Below, one piece after another: positions 4,201-64,000 of a stretch of DNA of 64,000 bases (the first letter of the stretch is position 1; each line of letters starts with the position of its first letter). Below the pieces are notes generated by a model. The model had not been told where the DNA came from. It ran no database searches and was given only the letters and a program-made list of their open reading frames with translations. The position numbers and the translations under genes were made by a program. Source of the DNA: Crossaster papposus (Eukaryota > Echinodermata > Asteroidea > Velatida > Solasteridae); assembly GCA_037893245.1 (NCBI GenBank), contig JBAIAA010000078.1, positions 1,426,001-1,490,000 of the forward strand, written 5' to 3'.

Positions 4201-7200
4201 CTAATTGGTTGCAGACAGTCACAATCCATCGGCCATGTGTGCAACACATGTACATTTACATGTACATGTACCCCTCCAAAGTCACACTGCGTGTTCCAGT
4301 TGAGCATGTAAATGAACGAGCAGGCATGTCGAAACTTTATATATGCATGCATGTCAGACATTAGAGGTGGATTATACCTTTTGCAGCTATCCAAAAAGTA
4401 ACCAACCAAAATACTTCTGAAAAGTTTACTTGTTGTTAAGATATATTTATGATTTTAGACAATCTGTGAAATTATTCCTCCATGCATCCTTTCATTTTAA
4501 AGAAAATAACGAAAGAATGTCATTTCCAAAGATGCGTCTCAGAGACGCTCTTTTGGAAATTTTCGCAAATAGTGTGCGCAAGCATTAAAACGCTGCACGA
4601 CGCACTTGTGGGCGCTATTATTGGTCTGTTTAGTGCGTGACATGCGAGTAACTGCAATCCGCTGTGAACACAGAATGTGGTGGCAGTTAAAATTTTGACT
4701 CGGCAGCAAATTTTGAATTTATATCGTAATCTTACAATATTGTTTTCTCTGAGTATGCAGCATTCACAGAGCTTAAAACTTTATCAGGTTGTTTGTCAAG
4801 GACCTTTGTTTATATTTTGAGCACTTTGGCTGCTTCAAACGATAAAAATGCACAACTGACAAATGTGACCTGTTCCAACGAAACCCGGACAAAGTCGCAA
4901 AATGTGTTTTGTCACAATGTACTCCTGAAGTCATTTCGGGATGGATTTTACCATTTTGAGGTTTTAGGTTTTCCTAAGTCACTCACTATTAATCTACAAT
5001 CTCCTCAAATTTGAACAAGATCCGTCTACCAGAAGTGTGTTTTTTTGTCAATTTTGTGAAACATTTGTGTACAGAAATAATACGCTTTTCTGAACTTCAA
5101 AGCTGTTTATCTCATAATTAGGTTGTCAGGGTTTTATCACTAAATCCAGACCCCAGGGAAGATAGGGGGGGGGGGGGGGGGGGGGTACATATGTAAATGA
5201 TACATCATTTTAAAGCTGAGAACCTAGAGAATTTGAAAAAAGCAAAATCTGAAAAACTAAAAAGTCGACTTTGTCCCGGTTCCGTTGGAACAGGTCACAA
5301 ATGGTCTACTAGTTTGGTCACAGGTCCAATATTCTTGGGGCTCACCTCGTCAACGTGACCCTGTCCGTTCAGGGGCCTGTTGAGATCAGCGGCGGTGAAT
5401 CGGGAAAAATCCTGAGTCATCATCTTGTCGATGAGCTTCTCCAGTTCCACGAGCTGAGAACCAAGATGCCTGCCCATAAAACATTGAGAAAAATGTTTGG
5501 AAAAAAAATGGAAACATTTGTAAATTGACGTGTACATTTTTACTCAATCAAATGTGAGGGGTTCTGGCCAAAATGAGATTGAACTGGGCAGAGGGGTAAT
5601 GAGGATTGTTAGGTATTAGACAAGTGGATACAATTCTTCTTATAAGCTGTTTCTTGCACCTTAATTGGAAATTAATCAAGTTTATGGCTGTTAAAAGTTT
5701 GCATTTATTAAGATGTTGCAAAAGATAAATACAAAAAAAAAACCTTTGAAATTTCAATGTTTGTACAAAAGAAAAAAGTTTTCTTTTTTTTTAATTACAA
5801 ACATTCCACTACTTCTTAACAAAATATAATCAGTAGGCAAACCAAATACCGGTATTACAACAACAAAAAATAAGAAAATGTATAAAAAAATAACCCATTA
5901 TTCGTTATTTTGTAGTTTTCTCCACTATATACCCTGCGTCTAGTTCCGTCTCAGTTTTTGCTTTTCAAACAAATTTAAACGGCAACAAATATATTAACCT
6001 AACACTTCTCGATCCTCCAAAATCCTCCGGGCAGTTTTAGAAAATTTTTGAGGATTCAAGGCTGAATGGCAAATTTTGTCGGTTGATTTTGGAGGATGCA
6101 ATGCGTTGCGGTTGTAGGTTGTACCCAACAATGTTTATGTTCAGCCGTGCATAATGTAACCCTGCCTTATGCTTGATATCCACACTGTTTCTGATTGTCA
6201 TTAGCCCCCGACTTAAACCCGTAGCAGTAATTAGTTGAGGATTGGGGGCAAAATACATGTAGTCCGCCCTCCACTGAACAAATCCAAGAAATATCGGTTG
6301 CAATTGTTAATTAAGATTCATATAACAACTGTTATATGTTTAGACTGTTATATATAAATATATAATGTTTGTTTGTTATTAAGCTGATTCCCTCCCTAAA
6401 TCCACATAGAGGAATCGGGAACCAGTGCGTATAGTTCACTTTTTGTACAGCTCAGAATAACCGACAAGCTATCAAGAATTTGTAGACGGAGATCAGTGCT
6501 CTGGGGCAAATTTCATGGAGTTGCTAAGCACAAAAAAAATGCTTAGCAAAAAACAGGGTTTCAAACCAAATTTGTAGGTGATGTATATTGTTTGTGACTG
6601 GTATTGAGCTGGTTTTTGCTTAGCATGAAAAGCACATGGAATTTAAGCTGGTAGCCTGATTTTTACTGAGAAAGACTTGTGCTATTAACCAGTTCGCACC
6701 GGATGACGTATATAAACGCAAAGTTTTACCCAGATTCAAAACGGATGAAGCATAAACACGCCACGAGCAAGGCCGGAAATATCTCTGTCAGCAGCAAGCA
6801 AGGCCGGAAATGTCTGTCAGCAGCAAAAATGCGTGGGTGTGCTTCCCGGTACTATCAGCCTGAACCCGACTCGGATCGAGTTTCGATAACAATAATTCCG
6901 CGCTTCGGCTAGGGGATGTTAAAATAATCCCGGCGCGAACTGGTTAAAGCAATAGTTTGTGCTGAGCAGCTCCATTAAATTGTCCCTTAGTACTACCTGA
7001 AGCTCTGCAATCCACAGAGTTCCTGGGTTAGCACCTCTTGCGTTGTGGAGATGAGATCCAGCGCACCCACAAACTCAGAGGTGGTCAGGAGAATCTGTAT
7101 GGTTGGCTGGGTCTGGTGGACGGTGGCCATCAGTTTCAACTGGAAGGGAATCATCAGAGGAAAGGATTCAGAGTCAAGTCCGCTAAAAAATCCACAAGTC

Positions 7201-10200
7201 AATTCACAACTCTAGCCACAGGTACGTACCGTAACAGAAGATTAAGGGGAATATCAGTTTCAACTGGAATGGAATCATCAGAGGTTAAAGATTCAGAGTC
7301 AAGTCCACCAGAAATCCCCAAGTCATTTCACCACTTTAGCCACAGGTACGTACCGTAACAGAAGATTAAGGGGAATATCAATTTCAACTTAGATGAAATC
7401 ATCAGAGGGAGGATTCAGTCAAGTCAACCAGAAATCCACAAGTCAATTCACAACTCTAGCCACAGGTACGTACCGTAACAAAAGATTAAGGGGAATATCA
7501 GTTTCAACTGAAATGGAATCATCAGAGGAAAGGATTCAGAGTCGAGTCAACTAGAAATCCACAAGTCAATTCACAACTCTAGCCACAGGTACGTACCGTA
7601 ACAGAAGATTAAGGGGAATATCAGTTTCAACTGGAATGGAATCATCAGAGGAAAGGATTCAGAGTCGAGTCAACTAGAAATCCACAAGTCAATTCACAAC
7701 TCTAGCCACAGGTACGTACCGTAACAGAAGATTAAGGGGAATATCAGTTTCAACTGAAATGGAATCATCAGAGGAAAGGATTCAGAGTCGAGTCAACTAG
7801 AAATCCACAAGTCAATTCACAACTCTAGCCACAGGTACGTACCGTAACAGAAGATTAAGGGGAATATCAGTTTCAACTGGAATGGAATCATCAGAGGAAA
7901 GGATTCAGAGTCGAGTCAACTAGAAATCCACAAGTCAATTCACAACTCTAGCCACAGGTACGTACCGTAACAGGAGATTAAGGGGAATATCAGTTTCAAC
8001 TGGAATGGAATCATCAGAGGTTAAAGATTCAGAGTCAAGTCCACCAGAAATCCCCAAGTCATTTCACCACTTTAGCCACAGGTACGTACCGTAACAGAAG
8101 ATTGATTGATTGATTGATAAATGTGGTAAATTTGGAGTAGTATCTAAAAGAAGTCAATTTTTTCTCTAAATCTGGTAAGTTGACCAGTGTTGAAAATTGA
8201 TTAAAAAAATCCCACATTTCTTGAAAATGATGGCACACTAAGTGCCATATTTTTACAAGATGCTTTAGACTGTCATTCACCAACAGTCCAGTGAGGCCAC
8301 ACGATCTCGCCAGATCAAAAAATTGATCAGCTCATCAAACAGAAACAACAAAGCACAACAGAAAGCAGAGGCACATCATAAATCAACCATCAATTAACAC
8401 GGACAGAAGGATGATTAACATTTCTTCCCAGGCACTCACACCAAAAGAACAATCTATTCTTGTTGTATACCATAGGATCCAATAGAAGAGTTGATAGTCA
8501 ACATGGAACAGGTATAACAAAACTGTGGCCTGGTGTCAGATAACATGTCAGATAACGTGGACTGTGAGGACACCTACACCGGTGAGACAGGAGGCACACT
8601 GCATACCCAGTACATATAACATACAAGTAGGTCTGCCCCCTGACGACAGTGGGTAAACATAATATCCACGCCAGGAAACAACATCTCAGTGGACAATGTC
8701 AAGATCATCGCCAGCAGGGAGGACGACCTCTGGAAACCAGAATCCATGAGGCTGTGGACATTTGTAAGCACTGCCACATACGAACAGAGACAGAGGATAC
8801 GAGCTGGCCTACGTGTACGATCGTCTCCTGTCGTGCGACCAAGCTTGGTCACATGACGAGTCACGCGAGGGCCTTAAGAACGCCAGTTGACAAAGACACC
8901 GCAATGGTGTCGCAAGCTCCTGATACAAGCTCTGTAAATTCTAGTCCCAAAAAGGTAGCTTCCATTTATTTGATTCAATAATGGGATTGGTAACGAACTT
9001 TCATGCTTGAGTCAAGTAAGGTATTTCATAATAATTCGGTAGGTTTTTTGTTGTATTATTTTATGTGTGCCAATGTTGTATATTCCCTTTAAACAAGGAG
9101 AGCTGGAATTAATTAGCTGGAATGCCATCGTCTCAATTCATTTGGATAGATTGTGACTGGATGACTTGTGATGGACTTGTGATTAAATTCCGAGAAATTA
9201 AGCCTTGGAATGGAATTTAATCAAGTTGGAACACGTGTCCTTTCTAGTTTCTTTCCAGAAAAAAATGCACTAATATGAAAATATAGGCAGTCTTGCTAAG
9301 CTAAACAGTAGGGCACTACAAACGAACAGACAAAAACCACAATTTAAAGAACAAGCATGTAAAAGTTTGTTCCTACCTTGTTGAAGACTTTGACGTAGTT
9401 TGCTCTGGATATTTGCAGTTTGAGGATTCGCAAGTTGCCCTGGGCCAGAATCGCATCAATGTTATTGATTTTATCCCTGAAAAAAACCAAAACCCCAAAA
9501 CAATAACAAAAGCATGAAGTCAAAAATCTTTTAAAGGGCTTGTGCAAAGTATTTATTTTGTCAATTGTATTTTTAATAAAACAATTTTTTTATCAAATTA
9601 ACAACAAGGCACGCTAAGTTCATATATTTTTATATACGGAAAGGTGTAACGAATACATTATTTAGAGGAAACTTATTTGTATCCCTGCTACAATCTTCAT
9701 TTATTCTTTCGCGGAATGTTGTCTTCCAATGGGAAGAAACACAAGCACAATGCCGGCTAGAAAACTGTGAGGCGTTCTGACAAAATTAAATGAAACTGAG
9801 CACAGGGCACATTGGAGAAAAACTGCAAAATAATGAAAAATGGGTGATTTTTCTTTAATTTTCAGATTTATTGATGTTTGTAATCTTTGACGTGATTTAA
9901 TAAGCAGTGTTCTCCAACCTGTATAACAAACCTGCACCGAGAGTACACGTACAGTGCAAGCAACATTTTCCTGCACTTGGGAGTAGCAAGAGTAACATGC
10001 TCGAATGAGTAACGCTCGGTTCAGACAGGCGTTCCACAGTCGCGCCGAACCAAATGAGTGAATTGAGTCCGACGTCTGAAACGAATAAGGGCGACAAAGG
10101 CACGCCAGACGGCGAACGATCGACTGCTGGAGTTGTTAGAGCGACTCAGGAGCGACTTGATTTCAATTTGGTTCGGCGCGACTGTGGAACACCTGTCTGA

Positions 10201-13200: not shown

Positions 13201-16200
13201 CAACAATTGGTATGAGAATCTCATCCCGATATCTTTGCCTGTTTAAGTTTCCCTCAATGAAGTGCAAGAGAGTTCTTTGCCCACTCGTTGTGGCTGCCCA
13301 CACCATGACACCACCACCTCCATAGGCGATTCTTCAAATAACATTTGCGTCAGCAAACCGTTCACCCGCACGTCGCCATACATGCTGTCTTCCATCTGCG
13401 CGATACAACTGGAACTGTGATTCGTCCGTGAACATCACTCTTCCCCAGCGTGCCAAGGGCCATCGAATGTGTGCATTTGCCCATGCTAGTCTGTTCCGAC
13501 TCCGAACAGCGGTAAGATCCAGGCCACGATTAGGACGACAAGCGTGTAGGTTTGCTTCTCTCAGACAGTTCCGGACAGTTTGTGATGTGATGCGTCTGTT
13601 GTGCTGGCCAACTGTGTCATCTGCTCTGCGTGTTGCTGGTCTAAGACGATCACGCAGGTGAAGAAGCCGGATGTGAAGATCTTGTGCTCGGGTGGTCACA
13701 CGTGGACGACGGGGGTGAGGTCGATTTGCTGTACTGCCAGTGTGTCTGAAACGAACTCTCAAATGACCGATCGTCCGATAGTGAACATTAAGCTGTGCAG
13801 CAACCGCTCTAGTGGACATCCCTACATCCAGCATGCCAATGGCACGTTCCCGCATGACTTGCGGCATCTGAGGCATGGCGAGTTCTGAATGTCAAATTTC
13901 AGGTGGCCTTTTATTGTCCCCAGTATAATTAGTGTCTGAGTACTGGTCATGCTGTTTGAGCAGCGTCTGGATATGCCACATCTGTGTTGTGGGTGGAATC
14001 ACTGCATCACTGAGCAATTCCTCACTGGCAGAGATGAACACAGATGTTGTTTACAAATCAAGACAAATAACTATTTTTGGGGTGAACTATTTTTGGGGTG
14101 TTTATATTTTTGTGGGCATTTATATTTTTGTTCAGTGTATATTATTATTATTATTAATCCTGCCAAATCCTGCAATTTGCAAAGTGGATTTTTAAGGAAT
14201 TTGAATGGTTAGGGTTAAGATATGATGAATACAAATGGTAGATACATATCTTTAATATCAACACAAGTCATCTGAGGCCAAAAACACTTACATGTATGCA
14301 CACAAAATCAGGTAAAGTTTATTGTTCGAGACTGGTATTCAGCTGGTTTTTGCTTTTGTTGTTGTTGTGCTCAGCAGATTTTGGTTGCTTAGTACATGTT
14401 TTATGGAATTGGCCCCCGTGTTAAAGTGCCACGTGATAGTTTTGAGTTTACGCCAGTATAGTGCACCTAGTCGCTCCTAATTGTTTCAAACGTCTGAGTT
14501 TTGACTGACTTAAATCACTCATTTTGGTTCGCGTAGTAGGCAAGCATTGGCAACATTCGCGTGAGTGGCACACACCCCTGGTTACTACCTTAAACATACC
14601 TTTGGAATCTGTTCTAGTTCAGTACTGCCTCGCTCTGAAAAGAATAAAAAAATAAAACAACTATTACTCACATTATGTTGATATTTATTTATAGAGTAGT
14701 GATGGGCGACTCCAGAATTTTTGGAATCGCGATCCCGTTTGGAATCGCGATCCCGTTTGGAATCGCGATCCCGTTTGGAATCGCGATCCCGTTTGGAATC
14801 GCGATCCTGTTCGGAATCGCGATTCCGTTCGAAATTGATTTCATTTTTTTCCACCGGCGAGAGGTTATGTGCCGGGTTTGTGAAACCTTCATGAAACTTC
14901 ATTTATTTTATTATAAAAATAATCCCGCGCCTCGACTCAGTGATGTTAAAATAATTCCGGCGCGAACTGGTTAAGGACCGGTTAGGTGGAATGTCTTTGA
15001 TCTATTTACAAATCTATTTGTTGGCAATTGTCAGCAACATCAAAGAGTAAGGAAGGCTTTACTATGGTTATCAACAGTAACTAGAGCCCTGTTCACACTG
15101 GACTTTTGGTAAAAACTGAGACCATGGGTACTTTACCCAATTTAGGTACATGTACAGTGCGGACAGCCTAGGACGTTTTCCTCTCAGTTACTTTTTCTGA
15201 GTCCAGCGGTTACTTTTAACGGCCAACTGCTGCCCAGGAAAACTTCCCAGGTAACTTTTCCCGAGACAATAAGTCCAGTGCGCACAGCGCGAGTCAGTAA
15301 AAGAGGCTCAGGAAAACGTACATTCAGAGTGCGAGGTCATGCTACACAGGGACACAATGCATGCGCTTTGCATTGTTTACCGTGCATGCTGCGCGGCGGC
15401 ATGCTGCATCGCATGTGGCAATTCCGCAAAGAAAAATCAGGAGCGTTGTTGTTCCTTTGGTTAAAATCATGGCAGACATTTTTAATGATACAGTCGGAAG
15501 TTTGATTGGTTTGTATTGTAGCACGTTGTACATAAAGAAGAAAATAGCGTGTGCACGCACGTGAGTCGAGTAGTAACGTCGACAATGGCATGAATGATCG
15601 GACAAAAGGCGCCTAAGCGCGCGCTTGGGTACATGAGGTCAATGCAGAAAGATCACGCAAAGCACCCGCATAAGAAATAATACTGACAGCTCGGTTACTT
15701 CTCTCGTGGTCTCGGTAACATTTTCCAGTGTCAAAAGTAATATGTCGCAAGAAGGTAACAATTTGGGCATGAGTCCGTGATTCGTGTGTGTGAACGACAG
15801 GCCAATGAGGCCTCCTGGAGATCACAGTGCGGCGCCGTTTGTGGTTTTGCGACAAATGATGCTGCACACTAAAGTTCTTTGAGTTGGCTTGTTGTTTCTT
15901 CAAAAAGTTGCTGAAATTGCGGCGTCTGCAAATCTTTCTGGACTAGAATCTTTCAGGAATGGAATCGACCACTTTAGTGAATCAATTCCTTAAAAAATTA
16001 GAATAGCAATTCTGCCCCACGGAATCAAATAGAAACGATTCCGGCGTGGAATCAAATAGAAACGATTCCAGCGTGGAATCAAATAGAAACGATTCCGGCG
16101 TAGAATCAAATAGAAACGATTCCGGCGTGGAATCAAATAGAAACGATTCCGGCGTAGAATCAAATAGAAACGATTCCGGCGTAGAATCAAATAGAAACGA

Positions 16201-18258
16201 TTCCGGCGTAGAATCAAATAGAAACGATTCCGGCGTGGAATCAAATAGAAACGATTCCGGCGTAGAATCAAATAGAAACGATTCGGCGTGGAATCAAATA
16301 CAAACGATTCCAGCGTGGAATCAAATAGAAACGATTCCGGCGTAGAATCAAATAGAATCGATTCCGGCGTGGAATCGAATAGAAACGATTCCGGCGTGGA
16401 ATCAAATAGAAACGATTCGGGCGTGGAATCAAATAGAAACGATTCCGGCGTGGAATCAAATAGAAACGATTCGGGCGTGGAATCAAATAGAATCGATTCC
16501 GGCGTGGAATCAAATAGAAACGATTCCAGCGTGTAATCAAATAAAAACGATTCCAGCGTGGAATCAAATAGAAACGATTCCAGCGTGGAATCAAATAGAA
16601 ACGATTCCAGCGTGGAATCAAATAGAAACGATTCCGGCGTGGAATCAAATAGAAACGATTCCGGCGTGGAATCAAATAGAATCGATTCCGGCGTGGAATC
16701 AAATAGAAACGATTCCGGCGTGGAATCAAATAGAAACGATTCCGGCGTGGAATCAAATAGAAACGATTCGGGCGTGGAATCAAATAGAATCGATTCCGGC
16801 GTGGAATCAAATAGAAACGATTCCAGCGTGGAATCAAATAGAAACGATTCCGGCGTGGAATCAAATAGAAACGATTCCAGCGTGGAATCAAATAGAAACG
16901 ATTCCAGCGTGGAATCAAATAGAAACGATTCCGGCGTGGAATCAAATAGAAACGATTCCGGCGTGGAATCAAATAGAAACGATTCCGGCGTGGAATCAAA
17001 TAGAAACGATTCCAGCGTGGAATCAAATAGAAACGATTCCGGCGTGGAATCAAATAGAAACGATTCCAGCGTGGAATCAAATAGAAACGATTCCGGCGTG
17101 GAATCAAATAGAAACGATTCCAGCGTGGAATCAAATAGAAACGATTCCAGCGTGGAATCAAATAGAAACGATTCCGGCGTGGAATCAAATAGAAACGATT
17201 CCGGCGTGGAATCAAATAGAAACGATTCCAGCGTGGAATCAAATAGAAACGATTCCGGCGTGGAATCAAATAGAAACGATTCCGGCGTGGAATCAAATAG
17301 AAACGATTCCAGCGTGGAATCAAATAGAAACGATTCCGGCGTGGAATCAAATAGAAACGATTCCGGCGTGGAATCAAATAGAAACGATTCCGGCGTGGAA
17401 TCAAATAGAAACGATTCCGGCGTGGAATCAAATAGAAACGATTCCGGCGTGGAATCAAATAGAAACGATTCCGGCGTGGAATCAAATAGAAACGATTCTG
17501 GCGTGGAATCAAATAGAAACGATTCCGGCATGGAATCAAATAGAACTGATTCCGGCGTGGAATAGAATCGATTCCGGCGTGGAATCGCCCACCACTATTA
17601 TAGAGTTCAAGTGAATTTGTTGCTTGTGCATGCCTTTGGGCCATTAATATCATGGTAGTGGGTTTTAATATCCAGCCACAGAAAATCAGATGCTAATTAC
17701 TCCATGAATTATTCAACCTGGGAAAATTATGAATCAAATTCACACTGTGAATGCAGTTTGACATGCAATTTAGTTTCCCATACCGGTACATGTACATGTA
17801 GCTTCATGCATACATACTTGTTGGCCTTTTATGCCATAAGTTTGTGCCAATGTGCTAATATCTTGTGGACAAACTACTGGTACAGTACATGCGCTAATTA
17901 TTTATGTTAGTACTTAAGGTACATATGTTACAGTATGTTAAAACACAATTTGACAAATAATATTAAGAATATATAAAATTGTGCAATCAGCCCACAAGCC
18001 TCATGACTTTTGATAAATGTACACTGTATGACATACATGTAGATCTCGAACACATAAAATTGTGTACAATAAGTCACACTACAATAACTTCAACCAGCGC
18101 ACAAACAAGTGACAAAATATGCACAAGGGAATTGATGAAGAGAGTATCAAGAATGTATGAGAGTAGGACATGATAATATGGGATATATAACATTATCCTG
18201 TGCTCAAAATACATGTAGTAATGAAAGGTTATCATGGTTATTATTCAATGTACCAAAG

Positions 18259-45700: not shown

Positions 45701-48700
45701 CAAACTAGCTATTGAACCTATATTAAATGAAAATGTTGACCGATTGAAGCCTTCGCTGCCATGTACATACGTGTACATCCACATAGGTGGTGCCCTAGGG
45801 TGGTGCGTATGGAGTTGTGGAGTATAGGAGTATACTGCGATATACTCACGCGCAGTGAATGCACAGAGTATGACTATAATTATTATCCCTAACAGTCCTC
45901 AATCCTTCACCTGTCGGAGGATTGAGGACTGTTAGGGTTAAGGAAGGGTTGATTACATCACCCTTGCTAAGTGACAAGACCGCCAACATAGAGCAAGATA
46001 ACTCAGTTGGTGAAGTGCCGGTCTGGTTTTCCGAAGGTCGCAAGTTCAAGTCTCGCCTTGCCGATTTCTTTATTCACCTTTAAATTTAAGTTCAAAACTA
46101 GGTATTTTTAAACAAAATTATTGACTTTGGGACAGTGCCATGTAAATTGTCACTAGAAGTAATAGTCATGATTGTTAATGCATAGTTTCACTGTTTGTGC
46201 AAATGTAACCCATCTTAAACTCGCAATGTTCAACACAATTTTATAGGACTGCATTGAATTAGATTTGCGCGGTGGGCCGGTGGCCTTACGAGAGCACAAC
46301 GCAATACCCGCTGTGGGCTGTACCACTTGGTACTTGTTCAATCACAAATCATCTTTTCCCTCAGATTTTTAATTTTTCTTACCTAAAAGTGTCTGCTATA
46401 TGGATAAATATTTAACAATAAACAACTCAAACTGTGTAGCTTTGTGAAGCAAATGTTTATTTTGTGTTGTTTGTCGATGTCTAGTCTGTAGCGTTCGCAC
46501 GATTTGTGAGCACCACTGTGCAGTGTTGTAGTCGAGACCCTTGAGACAGAGACAGAGACAGAGACAGAGACCAAGACCAAGACCGAGACCAAGGCTTTCA
46601 AGACCGAGACCAACACTTCCAGGACCGAGATCGAGCTAACAACTTTTGAGACAGAGACCAAAAACGAATAAAAATGTATTTAAGTTATTACCAAGTCTAT
46701 GGCCGACATAATTAGTGTAACAGGTCGATCAATGGAGATTGAGTTAACAGTTTTGAGTTAATTGACTGCAGTCGTTGCATCGTTTAACTGACCTGAGAAA
46801 AACAAGAAAATAGGCACTCGTTTTCAACCGGCGTCACGCAGTGGTTCTTATGTTGTTCTTGTTTTTTCACGATCGCCATCCGGCTTTTAAAATACAATTC
46901 AATTTTTCGAAACAATTACAGGATATCTACCGCAATGATTTTGCTGGATGCCTACAATCATTATTTACTTTAAAAATAGTCAACATATTTTCTAATATAC
47001 TAATATATCAACTTTCAAAGTGAACAAATAAATCAGCAAGACAGGACTTGAACCTCCGACCTCCGGAATACCGGACCGGCGCTCTACCAACTGAGCTATC
47101 TTGCCCTATGTTGGCGGTCTCCCAAAATGTCAGTATTTTTGTTCGAGGGCGCTATTCAGAAGTCATAAACACCAGAATTCCGTGTGGCCAGGGATCATCA
47201 CACCCGATTTTACGATACAACCTGGGAAATGATATTGTGGGATCGCTCAACGAGGATACAACTTGTTATCTTATACCAACTTCAACTAAAAGGTTTAATA
47301 GATTTGTTACCTGATAGCAGTCGGAGTACATGCCTCTGGACGTGGTGCTGGTCGCAGTAGAAGGTGTTCACCATGGCAAAACGAAGCAAAGCTTTCAGTC
47401 CGTCCGTCTAAAGGGAAGAAGACAGGGATAATCAGGCATAGTAAAGTAGACTAGAGCACACTCAACAACTGACTGCTGCCATGTACATGTAGGGTATGCC
47501 ATTTTTAACACCCGATCTAAAGCAAAGGGTGCTACGTGCCCTTAGGGGGTTAAAAACGACATACAGACTATCTGTGACCCGCTCCAGGAAAAGGTGACAT
47601 AAAATAGAGTTATGTACATGATTAAAAAGTCCAGGATATAAGCTTTCATTTGGTACATAGTACAGCGCCATAGCCCCTCCCGTTCCGGTGATATGACGTT
47701 TTTGCATATTAATGGTTCCACGGGAATTAAAATACACAACTGAGCAAACAGGCTTCGAAACACAACAAAACTAAGACAATACATTGGAACCATGCACTCT
47801 TAAAAGGTTTTGTTTCACTTTATTTATCAAATTCCAGTTTTTTTTAATTAAATCTGAAGACATTGGATATTAAAGATGTTATTTAAGACAACAAATGAAA
47901 ATCTAATTTTGACAAAAATATTGACCCTATTATTAACTTCAACAGGCCATTACTCATAAATACATAGCACGACTTATGTCACCTTTTCCTGGAGCGGGTC
48001 ACATATACATGTACAAATTACTATGTACATGTACATACTATGTACAGACTGGATAGCATATGCCCATTATGCAATGATTAATATTATTGTCAATTTTTGA
48101 TCCCATCTTAAAAAAATGGCCGCTGATACATAAAAGTTCTATGCATATACATAGAGCCTTTTCAAAACCTTCGCTTCGTCTTAAGCCTCGGCTTCGAATT
48201 CCGAATCACCGAGAAGCAAATCGAAATGGAAGCAAATGGAAATAGTCTAACTTTGGGGTTCATACCAATCGAGTGAATGTTTCTGAAGCACAAACGGGCA
48301 TCAGAATGTGGCTAGAGATCTCGCAATTGAGAATGTAAAATCGCCTTCAGCCAAAGTCGAACATGAAGCCAGGGATTTGAAAAGGCCCATACAGTGTTTA
48401 TGTATCAAGATGTGACGAGCATTTGGTTCATGTACGCGTATTATAATGCTCTAAAAACGGACAAGACTTCCCCCCACGATTATATTTTACACCAACCTGT
48501 CTAGATGCCATCTCTCCAAACAGTGGCTTGCTTTTGCTTCTGAGTAACACCTCTGCAGACACAACAGAAACAAACAAGAATGATGTGTTGACAACACCAC
48601 ATCAACATTATACACATATCGACCGGCAATGAGGTCACTAGAGCACGTCTATTTTCCCGAGGGACTGTGACCAGAAGGGGGACCTATTTCCTGAGGCCGA

Positions 48701-54700: not shown

Positions 54701-57700
54701 GAGCCTGTGGGTCCCTCCATATCAGCTTTGGACCCCTCTGCCGACATGGACAGATCCAAGGGATCTGATCTGGCCTGTGGCGGCGACTTGACCCCAATGG
54801 ACCGTACCATTACCTGGATGAGGTTGAGCCACTCTTGAAAGCTGCTGCATGAGGTGTCACTGTTTACGAGGAATGTGTATCATACTACAGGTAATAGTAG
54901 GCAAGTGTAAGGTTGAATTTTAAGATTTGTTTAAACATTTTCAGACGATATACAAATTAATGCAAACATATTGAAATGAGATAAGACGATCCTCAGACCG
55001 ATCTTCTGTTAAGACAAGTTCCGCTGGGTTGCTAAAAACGTTAGGATGGGTTCAACGTGCCTAAACTTTAGTGAAACCCATCCAAGGATAAGTCTTGAGT
55101 TAAGACGACTAACCCTTCCTAAGATGCATCTTAGCATTTGGTGAGATCGGCTACTGGACTCTATTACATGAAGACCTACAGCCTTACCTTTCTTCCAGTA
55201 GGGCCTGCAGCGGTGGAATGAGGGGAATGACGGTGTTGGCCTTACACAGAGGGCAGAGGTACTGGCGACCAGTACCTGTAATCAATTAGTTACTTGTGAT
55301 CAACTACAAATGCCTTGACTCCAATACTTGAAGACTACAGCCTTACCTTTCTTCCTCCGACAGCAGAGCCTGCAGCGGTAGAATTAGGGGTTATGACGGT
55401 GTTGGCGATGTTCTTACAAAAAGGGCAGAGGTACTGGCGACGGGTCAGGTCGCCAGTACCTGTAATCAATTAGTTACTTGTGATCAATTGCAAATGCCTT
55501 GACTTCAATACTTGAAGACTACAGGCTTACCTTTCTTCTTCCGGCAGAAGGGCCTGCAGCGGTGGAATAAGGGGAATTACGGTGTTTGCGGTGGTCTTAC
55601 ACAAAGGGCAGAGGTACTGGCGACGGGTCAGGTCGCCAGTACCTGTAATCAATTAGTTACTTGTGATCAATTGCAAATGCCTTGACTTCAATACTTGAAG
55701 ACTACAGCCTTACCTTTCTTCCTTTGGGCAGCATGGCCTGCAGTGGTGGAATGAGGGGAATGACGGTGTTGGCGATGGTCTTACACAGAGGGCAGAGGTA
55801 CTGGTGACGGGTCAGGTCACCAGTACCTGTAATCAATTAGTTACCTGTGATCAATTACAAATGCCTCAACTCCCATAATTGAAGACTACAGCCTTACCTT
55901 TCTTCCTCCGGCAGCAGAGCCTGCAGCGGTGGAATGAGGGGAATAACGGTGTTGGCGATGGTCTTACACAGAGGGCAGAGGTACTGGTGACGGGTCAGGT
56001 CGTAACTCAGGTTGTTACGGAAGCGAAAGGTCCTACGCTGCTCCTTGATGACCAACGATTCAAAATACCTGAAATAGTAATTCAGATGAGATTTGAAGGT
56101 TTGCATGGTGAAAAGGCAATAGGATAAGTTGTTTGCAGTAGCACCATGTGGTACATTTTCTTTAGTGAGTTGTGTGGTTCTGAAAAGAACCTGAGGGAAC
56201 TCAATGTTTATAGACAGTATGCTCTGCACGCCGTCAGCATACTGTTGAGTTACCTACAGTTCCTTTCAGAACCAAACAACTCACAAAAGGAAATTTATTA
56301 CATTAAGTCCATACCGCCTCAAGGGTACTGGACTAAATCCACCAAAGTCCATAAGTAAATTTTCTGTTTATACGTGGGCTAATGGAACCCCATTGATGTG
56401 TTGGTTGATGTTGGTGAACATAGTACACGTGCCAACACCACCACTGGATCCCAGTCAAAAGTCATCAATTGCACCAGCACTGCTTCAGGCCTCCTGAACT
56501 TAGTCCACCATAATCCATCAATATTTAATCAGGCCCTTAGGACCAAGTCTGCAATTTTTTATTTTTTTTAAATAGGTGTTTAGTCTGCAAGACATCAGTT
56601 ACAAAAAAATGAAGGACCAGTTTAAAATGTATTTAGCAATGGATTTCCAAAATGACTTAGGGATACCCCCACCCCCCCCCCCCCCCCCACCCCCTTCCAA
56701 CCTCCCTTGTTTAGAGTTTGATGGGGTGTGGTCAAACACGGTGAAGCTATTTTACCCTTGCCAGCAGTCAGCGTGCATGATGTGCCCACAGGTGTTGGCA
56801 TGCACTCCCCACGTCAATTGAGCCGACATAAACAGTGGATCAAGCTCATCTGAAATGAGAAGAATGATGATGATGATTTTGCTAATAGAAGGTGTAAGTC
56901 ACGCGGATAGAGATCACGATTGAACGTCCGGGAACCTCCGAGAAGCCAGCTATAGGACTTGTACGTGTAGTACATTTTGTTTTCTATAATGCTTTGTTTT
57001 TAGGAAGATCTGAACCATAAAACGGCCATAAATATGAATGACAAATTTTAAAATTAATGTTTAAATATATGAAAACATGCACGACTGTCTATTAAAGCAA
57101 AGTAGAAAAACAAATGTTTTGACCCGAGCTTCAGATTGCAATATGAAAGCCCCCAAAATGTCCGTACTGCATACAGCATGTGGATGTAGGTGAACGTACG
57201 TACATAAATTATATGCGATGACTGCCTTAAACTGCATATGGTCTACGCTTAAAGAGTGGAACGGTCATGGTATGACGTATCTATACTTTTTCGCTTACCT
57301 TTTCCCTTATTTGATACATCCTTCACATTTTGTAAATTGAAATGAACATTTACATTTTTACTAAAGCTACCTTTTAGTAACAAAAAGAGCGTTAAAACAA
57401 TTTTTTTCAAGCAAACTATACTTGCTTTACAAGTTGAAGATCCTATTCAAAATGCCCGGAAGTTTGGTTTTTCCTAAACTCTCATATGTGACCTGTCACA
57501 AAAAAATGAGAGTAAAGTCGCACATTGTGATTCAGAGATATGGCCATTCAAAGTCAAAATATGAAGGGTTGGTCAATTTTCAGATTTTGCGTAATTTGGA
57601 AAGTCCAAGTCCTCTTCTACATATTCCTATTTTTGGGGTGAGATCAGATGATCGAAAACCTCTTAAATTACGCGATTTTGCGTAGTTAGTGTTTGGATTA

Positions 57701-63382: not shown

Positions 63383-63427
63383 CTGGAGATGCAAACATCA
63401 TACAAACATAGACAATGTTGAATTGTG

Positions 63428-64000
63428 ATGGACCGGTGGTGATGGACCGATGGTGATGGACCGGTGGTGATGGACCGGTGGTGATGGACCGGTGGTGATG
63501 GACCGGTGGTGATGGACCTGTGGTGATGGACCTGTGGTGATGGACCTGTGGTGATGGACCTGTGGTGATGGACCTGTGGTGATGGACCTGTGGTGATGGA
63601 CCTGTGGTGATGGACCTGTGGTGATGGACCTGTGGTGATGGACCTGTGGTGATGGACCGGTGGTGATGGACCGGTGGTGATGGACCGGTGGTGATGGACC
63701 TGTGGTGATGGACCTGTGGTGATGGACCTGTGGTGATGGACCTGTGGTGATGGACCTGTGGTGATGGACCTGTGGTGATGGACCTGTGGTGATGGACCTG
63801 TGGTGATGGACCTGTGGTGATGGACCTGTGGTGATGGACCTGTGGTGATGGACCTGTGGTGATGGACCTGTGGTGATGGACCTGTGGTGATGGACCTGTG
63901 GTGATGGACCTGTGGTGATGGACCTGTGGTGATGGACCTGTGGTGATGGACCTGTGGTGATGGACCTGTGGTGATGGACCTGTGGTGATGGACCTGTGGT
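63428..64000. repeat. 14-bp minisatellite GATGGACCTGTGGT
   Basis: About 41 copies, continuing past the window edge. The ninth base alternates in blocks: six GATGGACCGGTGGT units, a run of ~10 CCTGTGG units, three CCGG units, then CCTG to the end. Confidence 0.97.

Follow-up and report, generated by a model that had tools for sequence, protein, structure and literature searches.

A hAT-like transposon copy in Crossaster papposus with a 27-bp minisatellite that probably grew in place from a single-copy segment of its right end

Examination of a 64,000-nucleotide stretch of the Crossaster papposus genome (hereafter the window, on contig C78 of the 1.02-Gb assembly covered by all genome searches) revealed an element of 2,901 bp, at window positions 14697-17597, lying between the two copies of an 8-bp duplication. 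The best explanation, which we hold with good confidence, is that it is a copy of a non-autonomous, hAT-like DNA transposon in which a 27-bp unit next to the right terminal repeat multiplied where the element now sits. Compared with its relatives, the 27-bp array is a private multiplication of an end segment that is normally present once. By its size and distribution, this array is a single-locus minisatellite of 1.56 kb and not a genome-wide satellite.

The components of the element are given in Table 1. Read 5' to 3', they are TTATAGAG, TAGTGATGGGCGACTCC, nine bases, six 18-bp units, an interior, 58 units of 27 bp, GGAATCGCCCACCACTA and again TTATAGAG. The two border octamers are identical at 8/8 positions, an agreement whose chance at two fixed places is about 1.5e-5 with equal base frequencies and somewhat higher in A+T-rich DNA. 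The right end, reverse-complemented, agrees with the left one at 15 of 17 positions. Together the two arrays occupy about 1,670 of the 2,901 bp (57-58%). The sequence-only reading of this DNA had described an element with an exact 8-bp duplication, inverted ends and an array inside each end, made mostly of the two arrays; the sequence and Tandem Repeats Finder confirm this description, which lacked a nested unrelated repeat of about 0.7 kb.

Table 1. Features of the focal element (positions in the window)
Feature	Position	Strand	Basis
8-bp target-site duplication, left copy TTATAGAG	14689-14696	.	sequence; 8/8 vs right copy
Left (5'-type) terminal inverted repeat TAGTGATGGGCGACTCC	14697-14713	+	sequence; extended 5' end recurs genome-wide
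18-bp tandem array, six units, GGAATCGCGATCCCGTTT type	14723-14830	+	Tandem Repeats Finder; run of 6
Left interior	14831-15083	+	first part like family 5' region, judged by eye
Nested unrelated dispersed repeat, MITE-like	15084-15770, ends approximate	+	genome matches; alignment with 7 copies
Right interior, homologous to family 3' subterminal region	15771-16020, clearest from ~15870	+	C604 79%, C1335 72%
27-bp tandem array, 58 units, commonest form GGAATCAAATAGAAACGATTCCGGCGT, last unit 22 bp	16021-17580	+	Tandem Repeats Finder and unit splitting
Right (3'-type) terminal inverted repeat GGAATCGCCCACCACTA, reverse complement TAGTGGTGGGCGATTCC	17581-17597	-	sequence; genome matches
8-bp target-site duplication, right copy TTATAGAG	17598-17605	.	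8/8 vs left copy

Tandem Repeats Finder placed the left array at 14720-14829 (18 bp, 6.1 copies, 95% matches) and the right one at 16021-17586 (27 bp, 58.2 copies, 95% matches). Splitting the right array unit by unit gave 57 units automatically and one variant in the sole gap; 26 of these 58 have the commonest form. A scan for inverted repeats with 9-base seeds, by which the imperfect 17-bp ends likewise go undetected, never paired the left array with the right one; the units of the two arrays differ, and the ends are not formed by the long inverted repeats of a foldback element. In the left interior, positions 14913-14977 belong to a common dispersed repeat (1,576 first-look candidates, 40 of them scored). 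The nested repeat has at least 53 matches outside the focal site, of 68-87% identity, with 40 of 3,406 first-look candidates scored. At 29/576 positions (5.0%) the copy in the focal element departs from the majority of seven others, and each of those seven differs from the remaining six at 30-41 of 590-609 positions. A search of the assembly with the joined flanks, in which 40 of 75 candidates were scored, found no match bridging a pre-insertion empty site; beyond the two focal flanks it gave 38 matches, all inside bases 2-136 of the left flank.

The window holds other features apart from the element. Tandem arrays occupy its left edge (17-1010, 17-bp unit CGCGCCCCCTGTTCGGA, 58.4 copies by Tandem Repeats Finder) and its right end up to the edge (63425-64000, 14-bp unit GTGATGGACCTGTG, 41.1 copies, 99% matches), and further tandem repeats lie at 7129-8103 (123 bp, 7.9 copies) and 55269-56002 (184 bp, 4 copies). 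An open frame at 13334-13891 (-) matches the helix-turn-helix of Tc3-type transposases (PF01498, E 2.2e-9). Rfam places a tRNA at 47034-47105 (-, 47.6 bits) and a histone 3' UTR stem-loop at 56151-56196 (-), the latter at 35 bits, just above the cut-off of 34.

The ends of the element recur elsewhere in the assembly. At up to one mismatch, the left 17-bp end has 14 matches and the right one 29, the focal site included in each case, against 1 for the reversed control of the left end and 0 for the control of the right; nine places appear in both sets of matches. When the 5' end is extended to 32 bp, it gives 30 matches, including the focal one, at up to three mismatches (control 0). The two ends of an element are of distinct types, 5' TAGTGGTGGGCGACTCCAGCATTTTCGGAATC... 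and 3', read inward, TAGTGGTGGGCGATTCCACGCCGGAATCGATTCTAATCGATTCC... Target duplications were checked in eight copies having both ends. In addition to the focal copy (8/8), duplications of 8 bp flank a 958-bp copy on C1024 (8/8), a 1,201-bp copy on C113 (7/8) and four short copies of 141-150 bp (C429, 7/8; C430, C1115a and C1115b, 8/8), which count as one event because they have common flanks; at C178, where 4/8 positions agree, there is no matching duplication. The dispersed family with hAT-like ends that the sequence-only reading had expected is thus present, and its reservation that no other element might carry these ends does not hold.

These relatives also bear on the proposal that the focal structure is a chance arrangement, that is, arrays lying between look-alike ends that do not form one element. 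In favour of such a coincidence, the ends are short, and GGAATC is common to ends and arrays; against it stand the exact 8-bp duplication, the resemblance of the left and right interiors to the family's own 5' and 3' interiors, and the other copies in which both end types occur in the same order with duplications. We consider a chance arrangement highly improbable.

Terminal inverted repeats of hAT elements typically start with C/TAGNG, and both ends of the focal element have the hAT-like start TAGTGRTGGGCGA. Moreover, subterminal GGAATCG motifs are repeated at recurrent spacing in the relatives; by analogy, they were probably binding sites of a hAT transposase in the living element. The Pfam hAT dimerisation domain (PF05699) has at least 110 matches in the genome, with 150 of 204 candidates scored. 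Family ends were absent from the 3' flanks of 40 of these 110 listed matches (20 flanks of 0.9 kb and 20 of 0.5 kb), chosen for open frames and as one per near-identical set; the other 70 were compared with the family-end coordinates by eye only. Because no transposase with the family ends was found among these 40, the superfamily was assigned from the ends, the 8-bp duplication and the subterminal motifs, and the designation goes no further than hAT-like and non-autonomous.

A cluster of nine 5' ends identical to each other (TAATGGTGG...), all among the 30 matches of the extended 5' end and lying on C19, C251, C343, C381, C468, C693 and C959, was considered as the autonomous partner, since several of them lie, as compared by eye, 10-31 kb from mutually similar hAT-domain matches. 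This candidate was rejected: the C251 and C19 members are a derivative of about 355 bp with a single partial unit and common flanks. Judged from these two, the nine ends probably ride as passengers in a larger repeated or mobile stretch.

The distribution of the 27-bp unit carries the argument on the origin of the right array. One unit is present in 22 of 25 other 3' ends; 3 are without any and no end has two or more, as against 58 units in the focal copy. Up to 9 mismatches of 27 were allowed in calling a unit (found range 1-8, median 4), and no unit was found in any of 200 shuffles of each end. These 25 ends hold at most about 20 independent ones (L077 and L078 have common flanks, L026, L027, L029 and L030 are one event, and L033 and L037 have similar flanks), and one, L080, is without a recognisable terminal repeat.

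The array itself was found at one locus. All 56 genome matches of a 33-base piece of the array, at up to three mismatches, lie inside the focal array (control 0). A query joining one family unit to the beginning of a next one gave nine matches at the same threshold, five in the focal array and four elsewhere; in those four, three of which were also read directly (L033, L075 and L085), the unit is followed by the letters of the terminal repeat and not by a second unit. Both searches apply to arrays within three mismatches, and more diverged 27-bp arrays would be missed. Since the unit is single-copy in most right ends of relatives and the array was found only here in 1.02 Gb, the array was born inside a transposon end, as the sequence-only reading had suggested. 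The term satellite, which it also used, proved too strong for a single 1.56-kb locus, and long or numerous arrays across the genome were not seen for this unit. Copies without the 27-bp array do exist, one half of a joint observation that the same reading had named as speaking against it; the other half, large independent arrays elsewhere, was not observed.

The same searches largely refute the capture by the element of a satellite that existed beforehand. Helitrons and one Xenopus MITE are reported in a review to have captured tandem repeats (PMC12628747). In this assembly, no independent 27-bp array was found at up to three mismatches, and one copy of the 27-bp unit ordinarily belongs to the family right end, which makes capture scarcely credible. 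A different possibility is that the 27-bp array, as assembled, may be an assembly error.

The array has several long open frames, in the window at 15990-17594 (-) and in other frames, that encode a 9-residue repeat; they reach up to 534 amino acids because 27 is a multiple of 3. A gene was rejected here: a Pfam Spt5-CTD match of one translation (1.2e-42, with no single stretch passing) is read as a low-complexity artefact.

The periods of the two arrays correspond to distances that occur in unexpanded relatives. In the other 3' ends (L077 and L080 left out), another copy of the terminal repeat's inner motif is most frequently found 27 bp farther inward, in 11/23, with an offset of 17 almost as frequent (9/23) and an offset of 53 in 6. 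At the 5' ends, the most frequent distance between GGAATCG copies is 18 bp, with 9 pairs in 8/13 ends (short runs are already present in two of these 8), followed by a spacing of 23 in 5 pairs; this count left out L010, L012, L018, L019 and L022, which are without subterminal similarity, and the array loci except C857. Since 27 and 18 bp are thus the commonest pre-existing direct-repeat distances, the periods are those that slippage or unequal exchange would give. Within the right array, only one block speaks for exchange, because neighbouring units are no more alike than in shuffled arrays: there are 16 identical neighbours against a shuffle mean of 14.4, a number reached by 679 of 2,000 shuffles. 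This highest-scoring block is repeated 11 units (about 297 bp) further on, with a score reached by 3 of 2,000 shuffles.

A sequence of events can be proposed on these grounds. A non-autonomous hAT-like copy inserted at the focal site, as its ends, its family and the 8-bp duplication show. Comparison with relatives shows that the 27-bp unit beside its right end, single in most of them, was multiplied to 58 and the 18-bp unit of the left end to six; this expansion most likely took place at the focal locus. The likely route would be slippage or unequal exchange between GGAATCG copies already spaced 27 bp apart at the right and 18 bp apart at the left, and the duplication of a block of 11 units inside the right array would come next.

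Whether this growth took place before or after the insertion is a further point to be weighed. According to the simplest view of the sequence-only reading, the whole unit had moved as one, so that a transposon may be a carrier of satellite DNA; this claim found no support, for the assembly yielded no other copy bearing the 27-bp array, and the array may accordingly have grown after insertion. Units of the array differ from the family unit at a mean of 3.5/27 positions, similarly to the single units of other copies. This divergence would suit a seed already old when it was multiplied, a weak argument that leans to late growth in place, and an insertion of fairly recent date is suggested by the exact 8-bp duplication. 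Arrays grown in an earlier copy and then brought here by transposition would equally account for a complete unit with its arrays, bounded by intact ends and an exact duplication; moreover, as cut-and-paste leaves no parent, arrays carried in by a single jump would look alike and have no second copy. Given that no other 27-bp-array copy was found in 1.02 Gb, and given the divergence of the units, we regard such arrival of ready-made arrays as rather unlikely, and growth of the array in place at the focal locus as probable.

Runs of 18-bp units are also found outside the focal element. Pairs of the 14-bp core 18 bp apart were found at seven places genome-wide, including the focal one (control 0), with runs of 6 units at the focal site, 4 at C74 and at C722, 6 at exact period at C875 (15.7 copies by Tandem Repeats Finder), and 2 each at C47, C193 and C857. 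These seven places came from a search for the pairs themselves; of 16 further 5' ends chosen without regard to them, one (C113) has a run of two, 8 have one unit and 7 have none. In the 5' sense, the spacer is GTTT in most focal units, ATTC at C722, ATTT at C193, ACTG at C47, ACCC or ACTC at C74 and ACTC at both C857 and C875, the last two being indistinguishable by these letters. Because the spacers differ among loci, most 18-bp runs look like separate local expansions. Among L079-L083, a relaxed end search matched C857 only, an intact terminal repeat not being present at every run locus; at C875 (L073), outside that search, the profile match begins at position 26. For the rest, family identity is based on profile matches (E 5e-6 to 7e-11), which shared motif content may flatter. 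A second kind of end expansion occurs at C722 (L081, C722:242200-243200), where positions 52-560 hold a fourfold 109-bp repeat of the family 5' subterminal region adjoining an 18-bp run of 4.4 units. Among the seven places, mostly with short runs, no large derived array was seen.

The family ends might more generally act as recurrent cradles of arrays, the spacing of putative transposase-binding motifs presetting the unit length, transposase binding or nicking driving expansion, and expanded copies possibly being favoured as transposase sponges. Recurrence is seen in the seven places with 18-bp runs, whose lengths go from 2 to about 16 units and whose spacers are of several kinds, and in the 109-bp repeat at C722; we consider the wider mechanism improbable.

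We know of no hAT element with tens of tandem subterminal motifs. No title on the expansion of a hAT subterminal unit to an array was found in the open-access literature, which is not proof of absence from print, and in one review "hat" occurs in two reference titles only (PMC9659126). It is already established that satellites can arise from the ends of transposons or from repeats inside them, as in Tetris (PMC4079207) and in MITE and Helitron cases (PMC12628747, PMC9659126). Tetris of Drosophila virilis is described as a foldback, non-autonomous DNA transposon, assigned by its authors to Mutator, in which TIR-220 tandem repeats inside the terminal repeats are building blocks of longer, kb-size arrays; complete copies have 8-9 bp target duplications, no transposase copy was found, and extra transposase sites are proposed as the first benefit (PMC4079207). 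The focal family resembles it in being non-autonomous, in end repeats that seed arrays, in duplications in the 8-bp range and in that no transposase copy was found in either. It differs in that the 220-bp units of Tetris, a Mutator element, are already tandem, whereas the focal family has 18- and 27-bp units and hAT-like ends, its 27-bp unit being single-copy in most relatives and expanded at one locus. A satellite precursor of the Tetris type would have end repeats in several copies and longer derived arrays elsewhere; the 27-bp array was found at one site.

Other systems share parts of this organisation. Galileo, of the P superfamily, carries multiple binding sites for its transposase in long terminal repeats (PMC3688188); the focal family likewise has motifs repeated within its ends, but the superfamilies differ, and binding was shown in Galileo and is putative, by inference, in the focal family. 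The Xenopus MITEs miDNA4 and Xstir have expandable internal tandem repeats, and reference titles within the same review treat clam and termite MITEs on this theme (PMC12628747). There too, a repeat in single or variable number on a non-autonomous element grows into arrays; the repeats are described as internal, in contrast to the focal unit, which abuts the terminal inverted repeat. Finally, among hAT elements, subterminal repeats of Kat1 matter for the enzyme (PMC4763223) and the Hermes octamer makes extensive contacts with its left end (PMC10368747). Inverted ends with subterminal DNA, contacted by the enzyme in Kat1 and Hermes, are likewise found in the focal family, which differs in being known without its transposase.

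What is new here, and in our view of moderate interest, is a hAT-like case in which the single-copy precursor and the expanded copy occur in one genome and in which the period is explained by motif spacing. Reconstructions of how satellites arise from transposons usually start from arrays already dispersed; the focal genome shows the unexpanded precursor as well. The first step of satellite birth thereby becomes measurable, and sibling species or individuals can date the growth of the array relative to the insertion of the element.
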